Of a DNA stretch of 46,671 bases, positions 9,364 through 46,276 are shown one piece after another. The notes under the pieces are model-generated. The model saw only the letters and a program-made list of their open reading frames with translations. It searched no databases and had not been told where the DNA came from. A program made the translations under genes and the position numbers. The stretch covers positions 1-46,671 of the IMG/VR virus record IMGVR_UViG_3300025626_000036. The stretch is one strand, 5' to 3'. Every line of letters starts with the position of its first letter. Within the stretch, counting starts at the first letter, position 1. The DNA is from a virus.

Positions 9364-9584
9364 CAGAAGTCGCTCCAGGCCTGGAAGTCGGTCAGGGTCA
9401 TGCCGGGCTCTCCCTTGACGACCACGAGCAAGGCGCGGTCTGCGGTGATCGTGAGCTGGACGGTGGCCTGCTTCTCGCCCGATTCCAGCAGGGGCAGCTC
9501 GATCTCCAGCGTCCCCTCCTCAGTCTTGCGGTTGCGGGACACGATGTCTCGAGGGTTGATGGACCAGCGGGCCTTCTTAGCCAC
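9363..9584 (-). CDS. Small tail-region protein, unknown
   Basis: 73 aa, between tape measure and large minor tail protein and overlapping both. It begins MAKKARWSINPRDIVSRNRK and alternates charged and hydrophobic residues (LEIELPLLESGEKQATVQLTI), consistent with a small beta-rich protein. Its position suggests a tail-tip assembly factor; no family is recognised. Confidence 0.65.
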   Translation of the reverse strand: MAKKARWSINPRDIVSRNRKTEEGTLEIELPLLESGEKQATVQLTITADRALLVVVKGEPGMTLTDFQAWSDF

Positions 9585-12417
9585 GAGTACCCACCCCCCG
9601 ACGACGCGACTCGTGCTCGATGCGGTCGAAGAACTCGGACACGGTCTTCATCTCTGCGAGGTCGGCAGCGGGGATCTCCACCTTGGCGACGTGCCAGGTA
9701 TCGCCCTGTCGTGTGGGCTGAGAGGGGATCGGTGAGGACGTTGCTGACGTGCGAGCAACGCTCACCGGTATCGTCGCTGTCACAGCGTCTGGAATCGTCC
9801 TAGAAACGCCGCCAAGCAGCTTCTCGAGCGGCCCGATCTGCCCCTCGATCCCGCGCAGCAGGCCGGACATGATGAGCTCTCCGTTCTGCTCCAGCAGGAC
9901 CTTGTCCTTCTCGGGCGGACCCTTGACCTTCGGGATCAGCGAGGTGATGGACTTGAGCTTGGACGTCAGTTCCCCGATCTTGGCGGTGACTCCGTTGATG
10001 AGCCCCTGAATGATGTTGCGGCCGGCGTTGACCAGCAGGCTGCCCCAGCCCCCGACGACGCCGAGGATACGACCAGCGATCCCGCTAACGGTGGACATGA
10101 GACCGTTCAGCGCACCAGCAGCGGCACTGCGTGCGGCGTTGAAAGCCCCACCCACGATGCCTGCCACCGCAGCAACTCGGTTGACTGCACCCATGACCTG
10201 GTTCACCGCCCCGGAGACGACCCCAGAGATGGCCCCCCAGGCGCTGGAAACGACGCTACGGACGGCGTTCATCGCCGAGGAGACGGCGCCCTGGATCGAG
10301 CTCCACACCGACCGCACGACGCTCGCGATGGAGTTGAGCACCCCGGAGACGTAGCTGGAGATCGCTCCCCAGGCTGAGGAAACGGTTCCCCGGATGGCGT
10401 TCATCACCGTGGAGATGACCCCGCTGATTGCGTTCCAGACCTGCGACACCCTCTGGGAGATGACGTACAGCACTGCACTGAGGCCCCTGCTGATGGCGTC
10501 CCAGATCGTGGTGAAGACGGCCTGGATTCCCTTGAGTACCGACCCGATGGCGTAGGCCATGATCGCCAGGTTGAGCTTGACCACCGCGACGATGAGCTCG
10601 AAGACGGCCTTGACCAGGCCTCCGATGGTGTTCCAGACCGCGTTGAAGATGCCCTTGATGGTGTTGAAGACCGTGGTGACAACGGCCTTCCAGGCGTTGA
10701 GGTAGGCAGTCACCACGGCCACCATGATCCCGAAGACCGTGGAGATGAAAGAGGAGATGCCGTTCCACACCGAGGTGATGACTGAGCGCACGGCGTTGAA
10801 GACCGAGGAGATGACCCCAGCGATGGTCGCCAGCACTGAGGAGATAACGCCGTAGATGGCGTTCCAGATGGTGGTGAAGAAGGTGGCAATGGCCGTGAAG
10901 ACGGTCGTGACAACGCCGGCGATGGACGACGCGACCGAGCTGACCGTGCTGGAGATCGAGCCCCAGACGCTCGCCAGGAAGTCCTTGATGGCGGTGAAGA
11001 CCGCGATGGTGAATGCCTTGATCTCATCCCACTTCATGAAGATGAGGATGCCGAGCGCGACGATCGCGGCGATGATGAGGGGGACCACCGCGATGATGCC
11101 GACGAGGGCTCCCACCGTGACTCCGATGGCAGCCGCGACAGGCGCTATGGCGGCCATGAACGCGCCGACCGCAGCGACGATGAGAAGGACGACTCCGATG
11201 ACCCCGATGATGGCCCCGGTGATCGCCACGAAGGCGATGATGGCCTTCTGCATCGTGGGCGACAGATTCAGGAACCAGTTCAGCATCTCGAGACCCTTGT
11301 TCACGATGGCCGTGACCGCAGGCAGGAGGTACGTACCGATTGTGATGCCGATGGTCTCCATGGAGCCCTTGAACTGTTCCATCGCACCAGAGAGGTTGTT
11401 CATCTTCTCGGCAGCCACGTCTGCCGCGGACACCTCGCCGATGGCCGCGCCCAGCTCCCGGAACCCCGCCTCACCCTGGTTGGCGAGAGCGACCGCACCG
11501 GCCATGGCGCGAGAGCCGAAGATGGTCGACAATGCAGCTGACTTCTGCTCGTCGGTGAGACCGTTCAGCGCACCCGCGAGCAGGCCCGAGACCTCGGCCA
11601 TCGACTTCATCGAGCCGTCGGCGTTGAAGAACTGGTTCGCCCCGTCCTCGGTGATGAGGCCGAGCTCCTTCATCGCCCCGGCGGCCTTCTCCGACTGGGG
11701 CTGGAGAGCGACGAGCATCTGGCGCAGGGTGGTACCCGCCTGGCTGCCGGTGATCCCGCCCTTGGCGAGCGCAGCGATGGCCGTGACTGTGTCGTCCAGG
11801 GAAACGCCGGCCGCACTCGCGAGGGGCGCCACGTACTTGAATGCCTCACCGACCGAGACCACGTCTGTAGCCGATCGGTTGGCCGCACCCGCCATGAGGT
11901 CAGCGACCTTCGGCATCTCCGACGCAGCGAGCGAGAAGTTGTTCATCGCCGCCGCAGCGATGCCGGCCGCAGTGGGCATGTCGATCGACCCGGCCGCAGC
12001 AAGCGCGACTACGGCGTCTGCCGCACCGTTGATGATGTCCGACGAGTTGAGACCCGCCTGGGCGAGCTGGAACATGGCGTCAGCCGACTCGCCCGCCGAG
12101 AACGCGGTGTCCTTACCGAGCTGCAGAGCCTTCTCGCGAAGAGCGTCCATCTCCTGCTCGGTGGCGCCGGTGACCGCCTTGACCGCGGACATCTGCTCCT
12201 CGAAGCCCGCTGCCGTCTGGATGGCGTAGGCGAACCCCGCGGCAACTCCCGCTCCCACACCGGCCATCGCGCCGCCGATGATGGTGAGACCGCGACCGGC
12301 CTTCTCGAAGCTGCCAGAGACCCGTCCAGCGGCCTCCTCTGCCTGGGCGGCCCCCTCCCGAGCACCTGAGGCGTCAATCTCGATGCTGCCGCGTGCGGTA
12401 CCGAGGTTGTACGAGAT
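9577..12417 (-). CDS. Tape measure protein, apparent ATC start
   Basis: 946 aa, which sets tail length. Domains: an N-terminal helical region; the TP901-type core (AVKAVTGATEQEMDALREKA, FQLAQAG, VSLDDTVTAIAALAKGGI); a hydrophobic block (about 395-460); a long repeat-rich middle of W-N/S-I-S-type units; and a C-terminal PKVKGPPEKDKVLL motif. The first ATG in frame is at 12267, but coding clearly extends upstream through SYNLGTARGSIEID, the usual beginning of actinophage tape measures. The residue in the Met position is encoded by ATC (12417-12415), 8 nt after a perfect AGGAGG (12431-12426), with an in-frame TAG just upstream. Initiation at AUC is inferred. Confidence 0.9.
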   Translation of the reverse strand: MSYNLGTARGSIEIDASGAREGAAQAEEAAGRVSGSFEKAGRGLTIIGGAMAGVGAGVAAGFAYAIQTAAGFEEQMSAVKAVTGATEQEMDALREKALQLGKDTAFSAGESADAMFQLAQAGLNSSDIINGAADAVVALAAAGSIDMPTAAGIAAAAMNNFSLAASEMPKVADLMAGAANRSATDVVSVGEAFKYVAPLASAAGVSLDDTVTAIAALAKGGITGSQAGTTLRQMLVALQPQSEKAAGAMKELGLITEDGANQFFNADGSMKSMAEVSGLLAGALNGLTDEQKSAALSTIFGSRAMAGAVALANQGEAGFRELGAAIGEVSAADVAAEKMNNLSGAMEQFKGSMETIGITIGTYLLPAVTAIVNKGLEMLNWFLNLSPTMQKAIIAFVAITGAIIGVIGVVLLIVAAVGAFMAAIAPVAAAIGVTVGALVGIIAVVPLIIAAIVALGILIFMKWDEIKAFTIAVFTAIKDFLASVWGSISSTVSSVASSIAGVVTTVFTAIATFFTTIWNAIYGVISSVLATIAGVISSVFNAVRSVITSVWNGISSFISTVFGIMVAVVTAYLNAWKAVVTTVFNTIKGIFNAVWNTIGGLVKAVFELIVAVVKLNLAIMAYAIGSVLKGIQAVFTTIWDAISRGLSAVLYVISQRVSQVWNAISGVISTVMNAIRGTVSSAWGAISSYVSGVLNSIASVVRSVWSSIQGAVSSAMNAVRSVVSSAWGAISGVVSGAVNQVMGAVNRVAAVAGIVGGAFNAARSAAAGALNGLMSTVSGIAGRILGVVGGWGSLLVNAGRNIIQGLINGVTAKIGELTSKLKSITSLIPKVKGPPEKDKVLLEQNGELIMSGLLRGIEGQIGPLEKLLGGVSRTIPDAVTATIPVSVARTSATSSPIPSQPTRQGDTWHVAKVEIPAADLAEMKTVSEFFDRIEHESRRRGVGTRG

Positions 12418-12429
12418 GAGAACCGCCTC

Positions 12430-12657
12430 CTATCGGGTGGGTGCGGACGGGGACCGGAAGCGAAGGTGGTCAGGCAAGTTCAGCCACTTGCCGAGCACGG
12501 CCTGCTGCTTGCGAGTCGCGTCCTTGCCAGTGTGCTTGTTGAGCTCTGCCTCGAGTGATGACCCGAAGGTGTGGACGGCGTTGTCGAAGCACCAAGCTCG
12601 GTGCCCGCCATCTATGTCGTAAAGCTCACTCGGTCGGCACCGGTACGCCTGCGACAT
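12430..12657 (-). CDS. Tail assembly chaperone, frameshifted C-terminal part
   Basis: The frame open upstream of ATG 12657 reads AQSPQELWLAWKMSQAYRC and then 60 or so residues ending SPSAPTR. It lies in the +1 frame of the preceding chaperone gene. Such overlapping pairs upstream of the tape measure are the conserved G/GT arrangement: a minority of ribosomes shift frame to make a longer fusion that binds the tape measure during tail assembly. The best slip site is TTT_C at 12697-12694, giving a fusion of about 232 aa. Independent initiation at 12657 has no good ribosome site. Confidence 0.75.
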   Translation of the reverse strand: MSQAYRCRPSELYDIDGGHRAWCFDNAVHTFGSSLEAELNKHTGKDATRKQQAVLGKWLNLPDHLRFRSPSAPTR

Positions 12658-40723: not shown

Positions 40724-41123
40724 AGACGTCACGCTGATGGACGTGGCGCACGTCTTCGCCCGACGAGGCACGTGCTCGAGACTGCCTGTCGGCGCGTGCT
40801 TCTCGCGCGAGGGGCGCGTGCTCATCACCGGGTACAACGGGCCACCCGCAGGCGCGCCAGAATGCATCCATGGCGTCGATGAGCCGTGCGCTGACGCAAT
40901 CCATGCCGAGGCCAACGGCATCTCCTACGCAGCGCGTACAGGCGTGCGTCTCGAGGGGTGCACTGCGCATGTCACCCATTCACCGTGCCCCGTCTGCGCC
41001 CGGCTGCTCGTACAGGCAGGTGTGGAGCGCGTCGTCTACGAGATCCCGTACCGCCTGACGGAGCCCCTCGACTATCTCCGAAGTGCCGGCGTGGCAGTCG
41101 CTATGCTCAACCGGCACGCGTAG
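40710..41123 (+). CDS. Deoxycytidylate deaminase-like protein
   Basis: 137 aa. GTG 40710 after GGAGGCG overlaps the preceding gene by 14 bp. TGYNGPPAGAP is the substrate loop. IHAEANGISYAA carries the zinc His and catalytic Glu, and HSPCPVCARLL has the two zinc Cys (PCxxC). VERVVYEIPYR is the core. Typical dCMP deaminases convert dCMP to dUMP; in T4 the same enzyme balances the pool next to the hydroxymethylase. Confidence 0.88.
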   Translation: MRPSRDVTLMDVAHVFARRGTCSRLPVGACFSREGRVLITGYNGPPAGAPECIHGVDEPCADAIHAEANGISYAARTGVRLEGCTAHVTHSPCPVCARLLVQAGVERVVYEIPYRLTEPLDYLRSAGVAVAMLNRHA

Positions 41124-41128
41124 AATCA
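41105..41128 (+). promoter_or_regulatory. Promoter-like element before polymerase gene
   Basis: GCTCAA, 8 nt, CGTAGAATCA is the third member of a motif shared with 32504-32527 and 44869-44892. TAGAAT (41121-41126) is a near-consensus -10. ATG 41134 is 8 nt downstream, compatible with a leaderless transcript. Confidence 0.45.
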
Positions 41129-43632
41129 TGGCAATGGAACCGAGGATGCAGCTCGCCGTGCGGAACGCCGCCTGCACGGCGTGTAAGCTCCACACCCAGG
41201 CCGAGGGCGATGACATCTGCGCCACGGGTGTGGGCCCTGCTGATGCGCGGGTGCTCGTCGTCACCAAGTTCCCGGCGTCGATCAAGATGCGCGCCGAGCT
41301 CGAGCGCGACATCCGCGAGGGCGGTCTTCCCGAGGAGTACAAGCTCATGTTCACCGGGGCGGTCAAGTGCCGTACCTGGGAACTCGAGCCGTCACGCGGC
41401 GACGTGAAGGCCTGCAAGCCGTACCTGGATGCAGAGCTTGAGTTCATGAAGCCCGAGTGGGTGCTCGTCCTGGGGAATGAGGGGCTCTCCTCAGTCGCGG
41501 GTAAGTCGGGCATCACCAAGTACCGGGGCATCGTCTTCGACCGCGGTGACACCAAGGTCATGGCGACCATCTCGCCGGGCATGTTCAAGCGCAACCCGGG
41601 ACTCAAGGGCGGGTACCTCGCTGACCTGCGGTACTTCGCTGCGCAGGTAACGGGCCTCGCTACGGCTGAGGATCACCTGCCGAAGGACGTCCGCACAGTC
41701 GACACCAAGCCCCTGCTAATCGCCATGCGAGACGAGCTTCTCGAGGCCAAGGGATGCAGCTTCGACATCGAGACGACGGGGCACGACGAGTTCGAGTCGG
41801 GCGCCGCGATCGTGTCCCTCTGCGTGACGACGTGGCGATCGCTCGACGACCCCACACCGATCGTGTGGCAGCTCCCTCTCGGTCACCCTCAGTCTGTGTG
41901 GCGATCGAGCTGGCAGCGGATCCTGGCCTTCATCGCTCCGGCTTTCCGCCGCGTGCCCATCGCCGTCGCGCACAACGGGAAGTTCGACTGCCGGTGGCTG
42001 CGGCACTTCGGCGTCGACCGGACCGTCACCTTCGACACCATGTTCGCTGCGCACCTGCTGGACGAGAACAGGCCGAAGGGACTCAAGCCGCTGGCGCAGC
42101 AACTCCTCGGCGCTGAGCCGTGGGCGATGTCGACCAAGTCCCTGCTACTCGAAGAGCTCGCGAAGGTGCTCAAGTACAACGGCCTGGACACCTGGCACAC
42201 CATGCGTCTGTGGCGTCTGTTCCGCGCTCAGCTCATGGAGCAGCCTCGACTGCTGCGGATCTTCAAGCTCCTGCTCATGCCGGCGTCTGAGGTCTTCACC
42301 GACGTGGAGCGACGGGGCCTCTGGGTCGATCGTGAAGCACTCGCGACCAACTGGCGCATCGCTGCCGCAGAGCTCGCAGATGTCGAAGAGCGATGCGCCG
42401 CGTACGTGCCTGACGACTGGGCCGAACACGGCACGTGGAAGGAGATCAACTACAACCCGTCGAACTTCCTGCGCTGGTTGATGTTCGAGCATCTCGGTGC
42501 GCCCATACTCGCACGCGGTAAGGCCAAGGACAACGGCGACCCCGGGGACCCCTCGCTCGCTGAGGCAGTCATGCTCGACCTCGCCGAGCTCGAGGGTCCA
42601 GCGGGTGAGTTCGCGCGTCTGCTGATCGAGCGCAGCAAGTGGTTCAAGTACTGCTCGTCGTTCTTCTCTGCGTATGACGAGCAGCTGGACGAGAACGACC
42701 GCATCCACTCGACCTTCAAGATCACGGGCACCGTCACCGGCCGTCTCTCGTCGGGCAAGGCCGACGCAGACAAGGTGACGGGCAAGAGACAGATCCGCGG
42801 GGTCAACCTCCAGCAAGTACCCCGCGACAAGTTCGTCCGCGGCGTCTTCGGCGCACCTCCCGGCTGGACGTTCATCGAGGCTGACTACTCGCAGGTCGAG
42901 CTCCGCATCGCTGCCGAGGTCTCGGGTGAACGCAACATGCTCCATCATTACGCGACGGGCCAGGACCTGCACATGGCCATGGCAATGCGGATGACCGGCA
43001 AGCCCGCAAGTGAGGTCACGAGCGAGGAGCGCAAGAAGGCCAAGCCCGTGAACTTCGGCTACCTCTACGGCATGGGCTGGCGCAAGTTCCAGGTCACCGC
43101 GTGGACGAACTACGGACTGCGCTTCACCGACGCCGAGGCCGAGGCCAGCCGCGCCGCGTTCTTCGACATGTGGCCCGACCTCCAGAGCTGGCACGCGCGT
43201 CAGCGGAGACTCGCCTCCAAGTACGGGCGGGTCGAGTCGCCCCTCGGTCGAGTGCGTCATCTGCCGGACGTGTACTCGCCCCACCAGGACGTACGCGCTG
43301 AGGCCGAGCGTCAGGCGATCAACAGCCCCGTGCAGGCCATGGCCTCGGACCTGACGCTCCTGTCCCTCATCCTGTTGGACGAGGCGTTCAAGCGCGAGGA
43401 ACTGCGCGCACGTCCGCTCGGTACTGTCCACGACGCCGTGAACTTCGAGGCGCCGAACGAAGAGCTCCATGTCGTGCTCCCGCTCATCAAGGACACGATG
43501 CAGAACCTGCCCATCAAGCGCAAGTTCGGGTATGACCTACGCGTCCCTCTCATCGCTGATCTGAAGGTCGGCGAACGCTGGGGTGGATCGCGTGAACTGA
43601 CTGAGGAGGAGATCTACGCATGGCCCTCCTGA
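41128..43632 (+). CDS. UDG-like domain fused to DNA polymerase I (family A)
   Basis: 834 aa. Residues 10-200 resemble family 4 uracil-DNA glycosylase: CTACKLHTQAEGDD and VKCRTWELEPSRGDVKACKPYL supply four Cys spaced for a 4Fe-4S cluster, but the catalytic GExPG and HPS loops are degenerate. The 3'-5' exonuclease has CSFDIETTG, VAHNGKFDC and YNGLDTWHT. The polymerase has FIEADYSQVELR (A), KKAKPVNFGYLYGM (B) and GTVHDAVNFE (C). No ribosome site precedes ATG 41128; ATG 41134 lies 8 nt after TAGAAT and could be leaderless. Confidence 0.92.
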   Translation: MAMEPRMQLAVRNAACTACKLHTQAEGDDICATGVGPADARVLVVTKFPASIKMRAELERDIREGGLPEEYKLMFTGAVKCRTWELEPSRGDVKACKPYLDAELEFMKPEWVLVLGNEGLSSVAGKSGITKYRGIVFDRGDTKVMATISPGMFKRNPGLKGGYLADLRYFAAQVTGLATAEDHLPKDVRTVDTKPLLIAMRDELLEAKGCSFDIETTGHDEFESGAAIVSLCVTTWRSLDDPTPIVWQLPLGHPQSVWRSSWQRILAFIAPAFRRVPIAVAHNGKFDCRWLRHFGVDRTVTFDTMFAAHLLDENRPKGLKPLAQQLLGAEPWAMSTKSLLLEELAKVLKYNGLDTWHTMRLWRLFRAQLMEQPRLLRIFKLLLMPASEVFTDVERRGLWVDREALATNWRIAAAELADVEERCAAYVPDDWAEHGTWKEINYNPSNFLRWLMFEHLGAPILARGKAKDNGDPGDPSLAEAVMLDLAELEGPAGEFARLLIERSKWFKYCSSFFSAYDEQLDENDRIHSTFKITGTVTGRLSSGKADADKVTGKRQIRGVNLQQVPRDKFVRGVFGAPPGWTFIEADYSQVELRIAAEVSGERNMLHHYATGQDLHMAMAMRMTGKPASEVTSEERKKAKPVNFGYLYGMGWRKFQVTAWTNYGLRFTDAEAEASRAAFFDMWPDLQSWHARQRRLASKYGRVESPLGRVRHLPDVYSPHQDVRAEAERQAINSPVQAMASDLTLLSLILLDEAFKREELRARPLGTVHDAVNFEAPNEELHVVLPLIKDTMQNLPIKRKFGYDLRVPLIADLKVGERWGGSRELTEEEIYAWPS

Positions 43633-43778
43633 CAAGCACCGTGGACACGACGCAAGGGAAGGGGAAGCCCGCGCAGAGTGACCACGGGGGGCCGTCGCCT
43701 CAGGTGACGCGGCTGGATACCGCTACCGCATCTGAGGCCACGGCCCCAACTACTTCCGACGAAGGAGACCGAGGATGA
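43620..43778 (+). CDS. Small disordered hypothetical protein (52 aa)
   Basis: ATG 43620 after GAGGAG, overlapping the polymerase end; the stop overlaps the next ATG (ATGA). LLTSTVDTTQGKGKPAQSDH and a Thr/Ala/Asp-rich tail (SEATAPTTSDEGDRG) indicate an unstructured peptide. Its place between polymerase and exonuclease is conserved only by inference. Confidence 0.55.
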   Translation: MALLTSTVDTTQGKGKPAQSDHGGPSPQVTRLDTATASEATAPTTSDEGDRG

Positions 43779-44860
43779 CTACACCGATCGAGCTGCCGAT
43801 GCCGCGCATGCTCTACGCCACCGAGGACGGACGGCCCCTGAGCACGCACTCCATGCTCAAGACCTTCCGTCGCTGCCCGAAGCAGGCGGACTACAAGTAC
43901 GCCCAGCGACTCAAGCCGAAGAGCATCTCCAAGCCGCTCAAGCGCGGCACGTGGTTCCACTCCCTGCTCGAGGCCCATCACTCGGGTCAGGACTGGCAGG
44001 AGCCCCACCGGCAGCTCTCGGCGAAGTACTCGGAGCTGTTCGATGAGGAGAAGGACATGCTCGGAGATCTGCCCTCCGAGCTGTCACACCTGATGAGGTC
44101 TTACCTCTGGCACTACCGGGACGCCAGCAACTGGGTGGTGCACGAGGTCGAGATGGTCGGGGAGGCCGCGTTCCCCGACGGCACAATGTACCGCGGCAAG
44201 ATCGACGCCCTGGTGGAGGACGACTACGGCCTCTGGGTCGTAGATCACAAGACGCACAAGCGCCTGCCCGGAATCGCCCAGCAGCTCCGTGACGCGCAGT
44301 CCGCGCTGTACCTCTGGGCCATCGCCAAGATGGGCATCCCTGTCTCGGGCTTCATCTGGAACTACGTCAAGACCGAGGCCATCGGCGAGCCCGTGCTCCT
44401 CAAGAACGGGGAGCGGCTCAGCAAGAACTCGCCGCAGACTGACTACCCGACCATGGCCCGGTTCGTGAAGGCCAACATGGAAGAGCACCCACACCTGCTG
44501 AGGATGCTTAGCCCCGAGCTCCGTCGACTCAAGGCCCAGCGATACAACCCCGACGAGATCCAGACGTCGCCCTTCTTCCGACGGGACGTGCTCGTCAAGA
44601 CGCCGGAGCTCATCGACCAGGTCGTGCTCGAGGCGTTCCGCACGTCGGACCGAATGCACGCCTACGCGTTCGACACGCCGGGTGTGGAGCGCGTGCCTGA
44701 TCGCTCGTGCGAGTTCATGTGCTCGTACAAGGACCTCTGCGTCGGGGAGCTGCTCCAGCCGGACAGCCCGTACACCCGCAACCTGCGGCGACAGCACTTC
44801 ACCGTCGGGGACCCGAACGACTACTACCAGGACCAGAAGGAGGGTGAGGAGAAGGACTGA
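43775..44860 (+). CDS. Cas4/RecB-type PD-(D/E)XK exonuclease
   Basis: 361 aa. FRRCPKQADYKY holds the first Fe-S Cys (about 34). GTWFHSLLEAHH is motif I. MYRGKIDALVEDDYGLWVVDHKTHK carries the D...D-x-K nuclease core, and QLRDAQSALYLWAI the Q/Y helix. CEFMCSYKDLC at the end gives three more Cys for a 4Fe-4S cluster. It is a single-strand 5'-end-processing exonuclease for recombination, next to the Sak4-like ATPase. Confidence 0.85.
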   Translation: MTTPIELPMPRMLYATEDGRPLSTHSMLKTFRRCPKQADYKYAQRLKPKSISKPLKRGTWFHSLLEAHHSGQDWQEPHRQLSAKYSELFDEEKDMLGDLPSELSHLMRSYLWHYRDASNWVVHEVEMVGEAAFPDGTMYRGKIDALVEDDYGLWVVDHKTHKRLPGIAQQLRDAQSALYLWAIAKMGIPVSGFIWNYVKTEAIGEPVLLKNGERLSKNSPQTDYPTMARFVKANMEEHPHLLRMLSPELRRLKAQRYNPDEIQTSPFFRRDVLVKTPELIDQVVLEAFRTSDRMHAYAFDTPGVERVPDRSCEFMCSYKDLCVGELLQPDSPYTRNLRRQHFTVGDPNDYYQDQKEGEEKD

Positions 44861-44861
44861 G

Positions 44862-44892
44862 TTGCTGCGCTCACGTCACGCCCATACGATCA
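44862..44892 (+). promoter_or_regulatory. Promoter before the Sak4-like gene
   Basis: TTGCTG (44862-44867), 17 nt and TACGAT (44885-44890). It overlaps the repeated motif GCTCAC-N8-CATACGATCA. It is the only clear gap (about 58 bp) in this operon and precedes the gene with the ATC start. Confidence 0.5.
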
Positions 44893-44918
44893 TGCCCGAT
44901 CGACCGAGGAGGTAAGCC

Positions 44919-45734
44919 ATCGCCAAGGACTATGCAGCCATCGCTGCATCGAAGATCCGGAAGCCCAGCACAGTCGAGCCCAAGCGCTCGTACCTAGTCT
45001 ACAGCCGGAACAAGAAGGGGAAGACCAAGCTCTCGTCCACTGCCCCGGACGTGCTGCTACTCGACCCCGAAGCTGGCACTGACGAGGAGACCAAGCTCGA
45101 CCCCGACGTGTGGCCCATCTATCAGTGGGAGGACATGGCGGACGTGCTCGGCTTCCTGAAGACGAACCCCGTCTCGCCGGTGACCAAGCGGCCGTACCGG
45201 TGGGTCGCAGTCGACGGGCTCACTCGCATCACCAACATGTCCCTGCGGTGGGTGATGCGCCAGGCCGAGGAACGTGACCTCTCGCGCCAGCCGGGGCAGG
45301 TCGGCAAGCAGGACTACGGCAAGTCGGGGCAGATGGTGCAGGCCATGCTCCACGAGTTCCACGCCCTACCGCAGTCCATCATCTACACCGCCCAGGAGCG
45401 CATGATTACCCTGGACGGTGAGACGGGCGATGAGGCCGACGACGACGCGGAGAACGTCGCCACCATCTACGTCCCGGACCTGCCGAAGGGAGCACGTGGT
45501 GCAGTCAACGCCATTGTCTCCGTCATCGGTCGGCTCTACGTGGTCAACGCCATGCAGAGGGTCCGGGTGAACGGCACGATCGAGGAACGGGAGATGCCCC
45601 AGCGGCGTCTCTGGATCGGACCGCACGTCTCGTATGACACGGGCTACCGCAGCAAGCACACCCTGCCTGACTACGTGCCCAACCCCACCATCCCGAAGCT
45701 CGACAAGCTCATCTCCGAAGGGAAGACCAAGTAA
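44919..45734 (+). CDS. Sak4/AAA-24 RecA-like recombinase, apparent ATC start
   Basis: 271 aa. RSYLVYSRNKKGKTKLS is the P-loop, VLLLDPEAGTDE an acidic strand, and RWVAVDGLTRI the Walker B. IVSVIGRLYVVNAMQRVRV is the later core. No ATG/GTG/TTG exists upstream of the P-loop in frame; TAA lies 6 nt before ATC 44919. AGGAGG ends 6 nt before that ATC, so the first residues would be (M)AKDYAAIAASKIRKPSTVEP. The first canonical start (GTG 45051) would remove the P-loop. It forms an annealing/exchange pair with the exonuclease. Confidence 0.85.
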   Translation: MAKDYAAIAASKIRKPSTVEPKRSYLVYSRNKKGKTKLSSTAPDVLLLDPEAGTDEETKLDPDVWPIYQWEDMADVLGFLKTNPVSPVTKRPYRWVAVDGLTRITNMSLRWVMRQAEERDLSRQPGQVGKQDYGKSGQMVQAMLHEFHALPQSIIYTAQERMITLDGETGDEADDDAENVATIYVPDLPKGARGAVNAIVSVIGRLYVVNAMQRVRVNGTIEEREMPQRRLWIGPHVSYDTGYRSKHTLPDYVPNPTIPKLDKLISEGKTK

Positions 45735-46276
45735 TGGCCGACACCAAGGCAAGCCCGGCAACCGCCCAGATCCTCGACTTCACCAACGTCAAGGACCGGG
45801 GTCAGTACAACCCGAAGCACAAGCCCGCCGGCGACTACAAGGCGCGCGTCGTCAAGGTCGAGCAGACCGACTCGCAGGCGGGCAACGCCATGTGGGTCTT
45901 CGCCATCCAGCTCGAGGACGACGCCTCCGCCGTCTACCCGCACCGCTGCGTGCTCAACGAGAACAACATCTGGAAGGTGCGGAACCTGCTCGTCGCGGCC
46001 GGCATGACCGTGCCGAAGAAGCGCGTGAAGGTCGACCCGTCCAAGGTCGTCGGCAAGACCATCGGGATCACTCTCGAGGACGACGAGTACGAGGGCAAGC
46101 TCAAGTCGGTCGTGCAGGCCACGTTCCCGGCCAGCGACCTCGCGCCGACGCCCACCAAGGTCGCGGGGGTCGCGGCCGGCGAGGACACCGTCGAGGCGCC
46201 GGACCTCACCAGTTCCGACGACGACGGCGAGGTCGCCGACGAGGAGCTTGAGGCCCTCGACGTGGACGAGCTCTGA
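45734..46276 (+). CDS. SSB-like/DUF669-type protein
   Basis: 180 aa. ATG overlaps the preceding TAA (TAATG) after GAAGGGAAG. PKHKPAGDYKARVVKVEQTDSQAGNAMWVF (OB-fold style strands), then VYPHRCVLNENNIWKVRNLLVAAG. The tail is acidic (SSDDDGEVADEELEALDVDEL), typical of single-strand binding proteins that recruit partners. Its position after the recombinase supports an SSB. Confidence 0.75.
   Translation: MADTKASPATAQILDFTNVKDRGQYNPKHKPAGDYKARVVKVEQTDSQAGNAMWVFAIQLEDDASAVYPHRCVLNENNIWKVRNLLVAAGMTVPKKRVKVDPSKVVGKTIGITLEDDEYEGKLKSVVQATFPASDLAPTPTKVAGVAAGEDTVEAPDLTSSDDDGEVADEELEALDVDEL

Follow-up and report, generated by a model that had tools for sequence, protein, structure and literature searches.

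At which codon does a gene begin when its frame contains no ATG, GTG or TTG between the upstream stop codon (TAA 44913) and the Walker A motif of its product? This question is raised by a Sak4-like gene in the record of an uncultivated virus (46,671 bases, GC 66%), the whole of which was analysed and is referred to here as the window. The features of its start region are as follows:

44892–44915, plus strand: in-frame ATG mini-frame (MPDRPRR), closed after seven codons by TAA; anti-Shine-Dalgarno (anti-SD) pairing only -1.5 kcal/mol
44907–44912, plus strand: Shine-Dalgarno AGGAGG, six-base spacer (TAAGCC) to ATC; anti-SD pairing -13.0 kcal/mol
44913–44915, plus strand: in-frame TAA, closing the Sak4 frame on its 5' side
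44919–44921, plus strand: ATC, putative Sak4 start codon, aligned with the Met of homologues and flagged as lacking a canonical start
44919–45734, plus strand: Sak4-like ssDNA-annealing ATPase, 271 codons plus TAA (45732–45734)
45003–45026, plus strand: Walker A (P-loop) SRNKKGKT, codons 29–36, of which RNKKGK is invariant in the family alignment
45051–45053, plus strand: GTG, first canonical in-frame start, 3' of Walker A

The AGGAGG, the six nucleotides to ATC GCC AAG GAC and the in-frame upstream TAA described by the first-pass annotation proved exact on re-reading, the frame opening with ATC GCC AAG GAC TAT from 44919. Its statement that no canonical start precedes the P-loop is likewise borne out, with GTG 45051 being the first and lying after SRNKKGKT, and the product contains Walker A only if translation begins 5' of this GTG. 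The coding signal of the frame, as judged by codon usage, extends back to the first codon past TAA 44913.

The product had been called a Sak4-like ATPase, which is confirmed by its match with phrog_124 (Sak4-like ssDNA annealing protein; E 7.6e-39, residues 12–264). It also matches PF13479 AAA_24 (E 3.6e-16; 60 bits, cut-off 27), and the profile of the Sak4 family recovers one solved chain, ORF016 of 8rc5 (E 2.2e-08); ATP-dependent single-strand annealing is predicted for the window product by this homology. A single-sequence search with the window Sak4 protein gave no match, and alignment-based searches were needed for relatives. The nearest known relative (L016) is about 60% identical and starts with ATG, and the best isolate relatives are Gordonia phage proteins (about 55% identity). 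The known hosts of the relatives include Gordonia, Mycobacterium, Microbacterium, Streptomyces and others, which together with the GC content of 66% makes an actinobacterial host of the window phage probable. A search of genome contigs for Sak4 gave one relative (L087; 47% identity), located in a contig labelled as an Acidobacteria MAG (QHXS01000048.1), which is possibly a prophage or a misbinned phage.

Two neighbouring genes accompany Sak4:

43775–44860, plus strand: RecB/Cas4-like PD-(D/E)XK exonuclease gene with ATG start (phrog_1218, E 1.2e-74; PF12705)
45734–46276, plus strand: DUF669 SSB-like gene (PF05037, 21.5 bits, cut-off 21; phrog_14876, phrog_378)

The ATG of the DUF669 gene overlaps the Sak4 stop codon (TAATG). 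The order exonuclease, Sak4, DUF669-like recurs in relatives, and the same exonuclease neighbour is found in Gordonia phages. In HK620, the SSB that partners Sak4 belongs to the DUF669 family (PMC5928155), and the neighbouring SSB that serves as a criterion for Sak4 (PMC5928155) is present here as the gene at 45734–46276. The window Sak4 shares family, Walker A and DUF669 SSB neighbour with the Sak4 of HK620 and the actinophage Sak4-like proteins of phrog_124 (PMC5928155), but differs from its annotated relatives in that they start with ATG or GTG.

The survey of homologues' starts, proposed earlier as a check, found several relatives whose initial Met is aligned exactly with the window ATC, namely L016 (MAKDYNAIA), L022, L049 and L050 (MAKDYAAIA) and L027 (MAKDYSAIA). 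Homologues that start at the position of 45051 and lack the P-loop, named beforehand as the refuting case, were sought among about 86 homologues, and no homologue complete at its 5' end proved to be of this type. In the Gordonia phages, the Sak4 protein has 7–10 further residues ahead of KDY, and its start codon is ATG or GTG, in most cases behind a Shine-Dalgarno sequence. Such extensions of several relatives would accord with a start at ATG 44892, which is in frame with Sak4 and would require readthrough of the TAA, or a TAA that is itself a mutation or an error. This candidate is rejected as highly improbable, as ATG 44892 has no Shine-Dalgarno sequence (-1.5 kcal/mol), would need a tandem AGG AGG, which none of 26 window genes contains in frame (AGG making up 5.5% of Arg codons), and is contradicted by the several relatives, including the nearest, that begin exactly at the ATC position. 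The mini-frame, having no Shine-Dalgarno sequence of its own, is probably a chance occurrence. Separately, the ATG of one Sak4 relative (L149, 3982–4753) lies past the conserved KDY segment, which indicates that the N-terminal stretch can be lost.

The first-pass annotation had also reported a second gene with an ATC start and a Shine-Dalgarno sequence, and this holds for the tape measure gene:

9577–12417, minus strand: tape measure gene, 946 codons, with ATC at 12417–12415; homologues are annotated as tape measure protein
12426–12431, minus strand: Shine-Dalgarno AGGAGG of the tape measure gene, eight-base spacer; anti-SD pairing -15.5 kcal/mol

The first canonical start in this frame is ATG 12267. 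Where the 5' end of a tape measure relative could be read, the start in 21 of 22 is ATG, GTG or TTG and lies at most a few codons away from the ATC place (N-termini M-PDYNLGTARG, MA-SLGTIRG and similar), while the one outside these (L167) could not be judged. AGGAGG occurs 47 times on both strands of the window, about ten times at gene starts, and two of the gene-start sites (44907, plus; 12431, minus) precede ATC with no canonical codon 4–10 bases downstream. In anti-SD pairing among 26 window genes, the tape measure gene ranks second and Sak4 third.

The reading that we prefer, with a probability of about 0.82 on the comparison of sequences, is that ATC 44919 is the real start of Sak4, used by weak fMet initiation behind a strong Shine-Dalgarno sequence, and that the same mode operates at the tape measure ATC 12417. 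The strong Shine-Dalgarno sequence at optimal spacing would set the ATC in the ribosomal P site, where initiator fMet-tRNA would begin despite the third-position mismatch, at a rate well below that of ATG, probably with IF3 proofreading acting against it. The product would then begin with fMet-Ala-Lys-Asp-Tyr, as in relatives. What the analysis demonstrates is the sequence, the identity of the gene, its start position from homology, the strong Shine-Dalgarno sequence and the recurrence in separate lineages; we infer fMet at ATC, the reduced rate and any benefit, such as Sak4 kept below its SSB partner, while IF3 sensitivity of the ATC start may be expected by analogy (PMC5472188). A counterpoint to initiation at ATC is that the switch from AUG to AUU is very rare in cellular genomes, having been found for 1 of 61,358 ancestral AUG starts (PMC5622118). 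A search of the window for tRNA genes, bearing on the idea of an ATC-reading phage tRNA, found none.

Recurrence of such starts was surveyed in 68 non-identical Sak4 genes, using stop-to-stop frames and the start position expected from homology. Three of them (3/68), namely the window gene (ATC), L062 (ATC) and L042 (ATT), lack a canonical codon where one is expected; a fourth gene, L149, was also flagged but has a nearby ATG. The start regions read GGGAGGGCAGTAGCC ATC GCC GAG AAA GAC TAC in L062 and AAGGGAGCCTGAG ATT CCT ATT GAC TAT in L042. The ATC of L062 occupies the position of the relatives' ATG or GTG in MAEKDY, its closest kin (79% and 81% identical) starting with ATG (L085) and GTG (L058). 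L062 and L042 are weaker cases than the window, because in-frame ATGs lie 3–7 codons downstream (9 and 21 bases, respectively, past the first conserved codons), and a start there would spare the P-loop. Anti-SD pairing is -12.3 kcal/mol at the ATC of L062 versus -5.7 kcal/mol at its downstream ATG, and -8.1 kcal/mol at the ATT of L042 versus -0.7 kcal/mol at its downstream ATG. These two distant relatives probably start Sak4 at ATC or ATT. On the Sak4 protein tree the ATH label needs three separate changes, at least two of which are forced by supported branches. Pattern scans for more Sak4 genes with ATH starts gave only L062 plus chance matches (L077, L163, L165 and L166).

The other families surveyed alongside comprise 397 testable genes from 13 families, of which 29 were flagged. 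On inspection, the flagged non-Sak4 genes proved to start canonically a few codons further on or to be aligned through an internal domain, and no clear case was left, although one polymerase frame (L030), with four scattered supports, is a possible exception. The hypergeometric probability of all three cases falling in Sak4 is estimated at about 0.003, rising to 0.02 when the window, which prompted the search, is omitted. A genome-wide survey, with a tolerance looser than that of the Sak4 survey, covered 515 testable genes in 22 phage genomes and flagged 18. For 16 of these, a canonical start lies a little farther along the frame or the alignment covers an internal domain. This leaves two window genes, Sak4 and tape measure, as the sole clear cases with no canonical start nearby; the looser survey does not flag L062 or L042, owing to their downstream ATGs.

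These counts bear on whether the ATC codons are artefacts, i.e. whether sequencing or assembly error, or a strain mixture, conceals ATG at both 44919 and 12417. The source is an uncultivated virus record, a start reading ATG GCC AAG would be entirely conventional, and a single G-to-C change would account for each case. Error would, however, need to have struck the third position of both start codons; among the sense genes of the window that were compared with relatives, none of the others is broken up; and the contigs of L062 and L042 show ATC or ATT at the start of the same gene. Error is unlikely on these three grounds, and the earlier argument to that effect, made from two genes of the window, is strengthened by the Sak4 genes of L062 (ATC) and L042 (ATT). 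No near-identical record of the window phage was found, the closest relative being about 60% identical. Apparent split genes in the L062 contig were dismissed as antisense shadows.

Termination-reinitiation, in which ribosomes stopping 1–3 bases upstream restart on ATC or ATT, draws on the stop codons located 3 (window), 2 (L062) and 1 (L042) bases upstream, that of L062 being the exonuclease stop. It is nonetheless improbable, since the window mini-frame has no Shine-Dalgarno sequence and the exonuclease stop is 58 bases off, while for the tape measure ATC the nearest stop, a TAG, is about 10 rather than 1–3 bases upstream.

If initiation at ATC is accepted, its purpose has to be considered. 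The weak start may serve no regulatory end and be kept by drift, with the strong Shine-Dalgarno sequence yielding enough protein, for which we would give a little under even odds. This agrees with the sporadic occurrence of ATH starts at tree tips, the nearest kin of which use ATG or GTG, with the RNA structure at the starts, which shows no departure from shuffled sequences, and with the strong Shine-Dalgarno sequences known beside weak starts (PMC5622118, PMC13009471). Against drift, Sak4 accounts for three of the four cases and a tail protein of low copy number for the remaining one, which points to these products being tolerated, or wanted, at low output. Tentatively, an IF3-sensitive ATC may instead hold Sak4 below its SSB partner, by analogy with the GTC start for sigR/rsrA in Streptomyces. 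The DUF669 SSB gene comes next with its overlapping TAATG, sigR rises about fourfold when GTC is changed to ATG (PMC5472188), and ATH starts are enriched in Sak4; a low ratio of Sak4 to SSB would fit the operon if the analogy applies. Such regulation is opposed by the weak codon not being conserved in close relatives, neither between the window and L016 (ATG) nor between L062 and L085 (ATG) or L058 (GTG). As the ATC is not conserved in near relatives, drift is about as likely as regulation, and the deliberate control of initiation hinted at by the first-pass annotation is at present a conjecture, the relatives using ATG or GTG.

Known weak starts offer partial parallels to initiation at ATC. 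The start codon of infC is ATC in Streptomyces, ATT in E. coli (PMC5472188) and AUA in S. aureus (PMC13009471), so that infC, like the window Sak4, has an AUH start with a Shine-Dalgarno sequence; it is, however, autoregulated by its own product and its start is widely conserved, whereas Sak4 is a phage annealase in which the codon is sporadic. The Streptomyces sigR gene has a GTC start repressed by IF3, with its downstream partner in excess (PMC5472188). This actinobacterial gene resembles the window Sak4 in having a weak start and lying upstream of and overlapping its partner, but its codon and function are different, and IF3 repression is demonstrated for sigR and only inferred for Sak4. 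In S. aureus, AUU and AUA starts lie behind Shine-Dalgarno sequences of extended length, with reporter output at roughly 10% of that from AUG (PMC13009471); cvfC1 (AUU) and ccpN (AUA) share with the window Sak4 a strong Shine-Dalgarno sequence behind a non-canonical start (PMC13009471), but are cellular genes, with the ccpN start conserved to B. subtilis. The best precedents for the window ATC start are the actinobacterial ones, infC and sigR.

A handful of bacterial genes have a documented natural start at AUC or AUU. AUH starts are a known kind to which the window adds an instance, while no phage example of an ATC/AUC or AUU start codon was found in the open-access literature searched. If the ATC start is real, standard gene calling cuts Sak4 past its ATP-binding site or drops the gene, and weak-start control of phage recombination and tail genes becomes testable. 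A broader proposal, which we regard as doubtful, is that AUC/AUU starts of Sak4 evolved repeatedly in phages, probably of Actinobacteria, are IF3-sensitive and keep Sak4 below SSB, here extending to the tape measure gene, and that callers accepting only ATG, GTG and TTG miss them.

A promoter scan of the gap between exonuclease and Sak4 found none; TTGCTG and TACGAT with a 17-base gap at 44862–44890 (plus strand) within it look promoter-like by eye and are a possible promoter, left unscored by the scan. Elsewhere in the window, 41083–43629 (plus strand) encodes a family A DNA polymerase that carries a 3'-5' exonuclease domain and matches PF03167 (uracil-DNA glycosylase superfamily) towards its N-terminus; the GTG start of this gene (41083) has almost no Shine-Dalgarno sequence (-0.6 kcal/mol). 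Restriction avoidance, by which ATG to ATC would remove CATG or CCATGG, was rejected as a cause of the ATC starts, CATG occurring 204 times versus 236 expected and many window genes starting with CATG. Over the whole window, TGATCA is absent (8.5 expected), ATCGAT occurs 2 times versus 10.5 and TCATGA 3 times versus 11.8, and the scarcity of these three sites perhaps reflects restriction avoidance.
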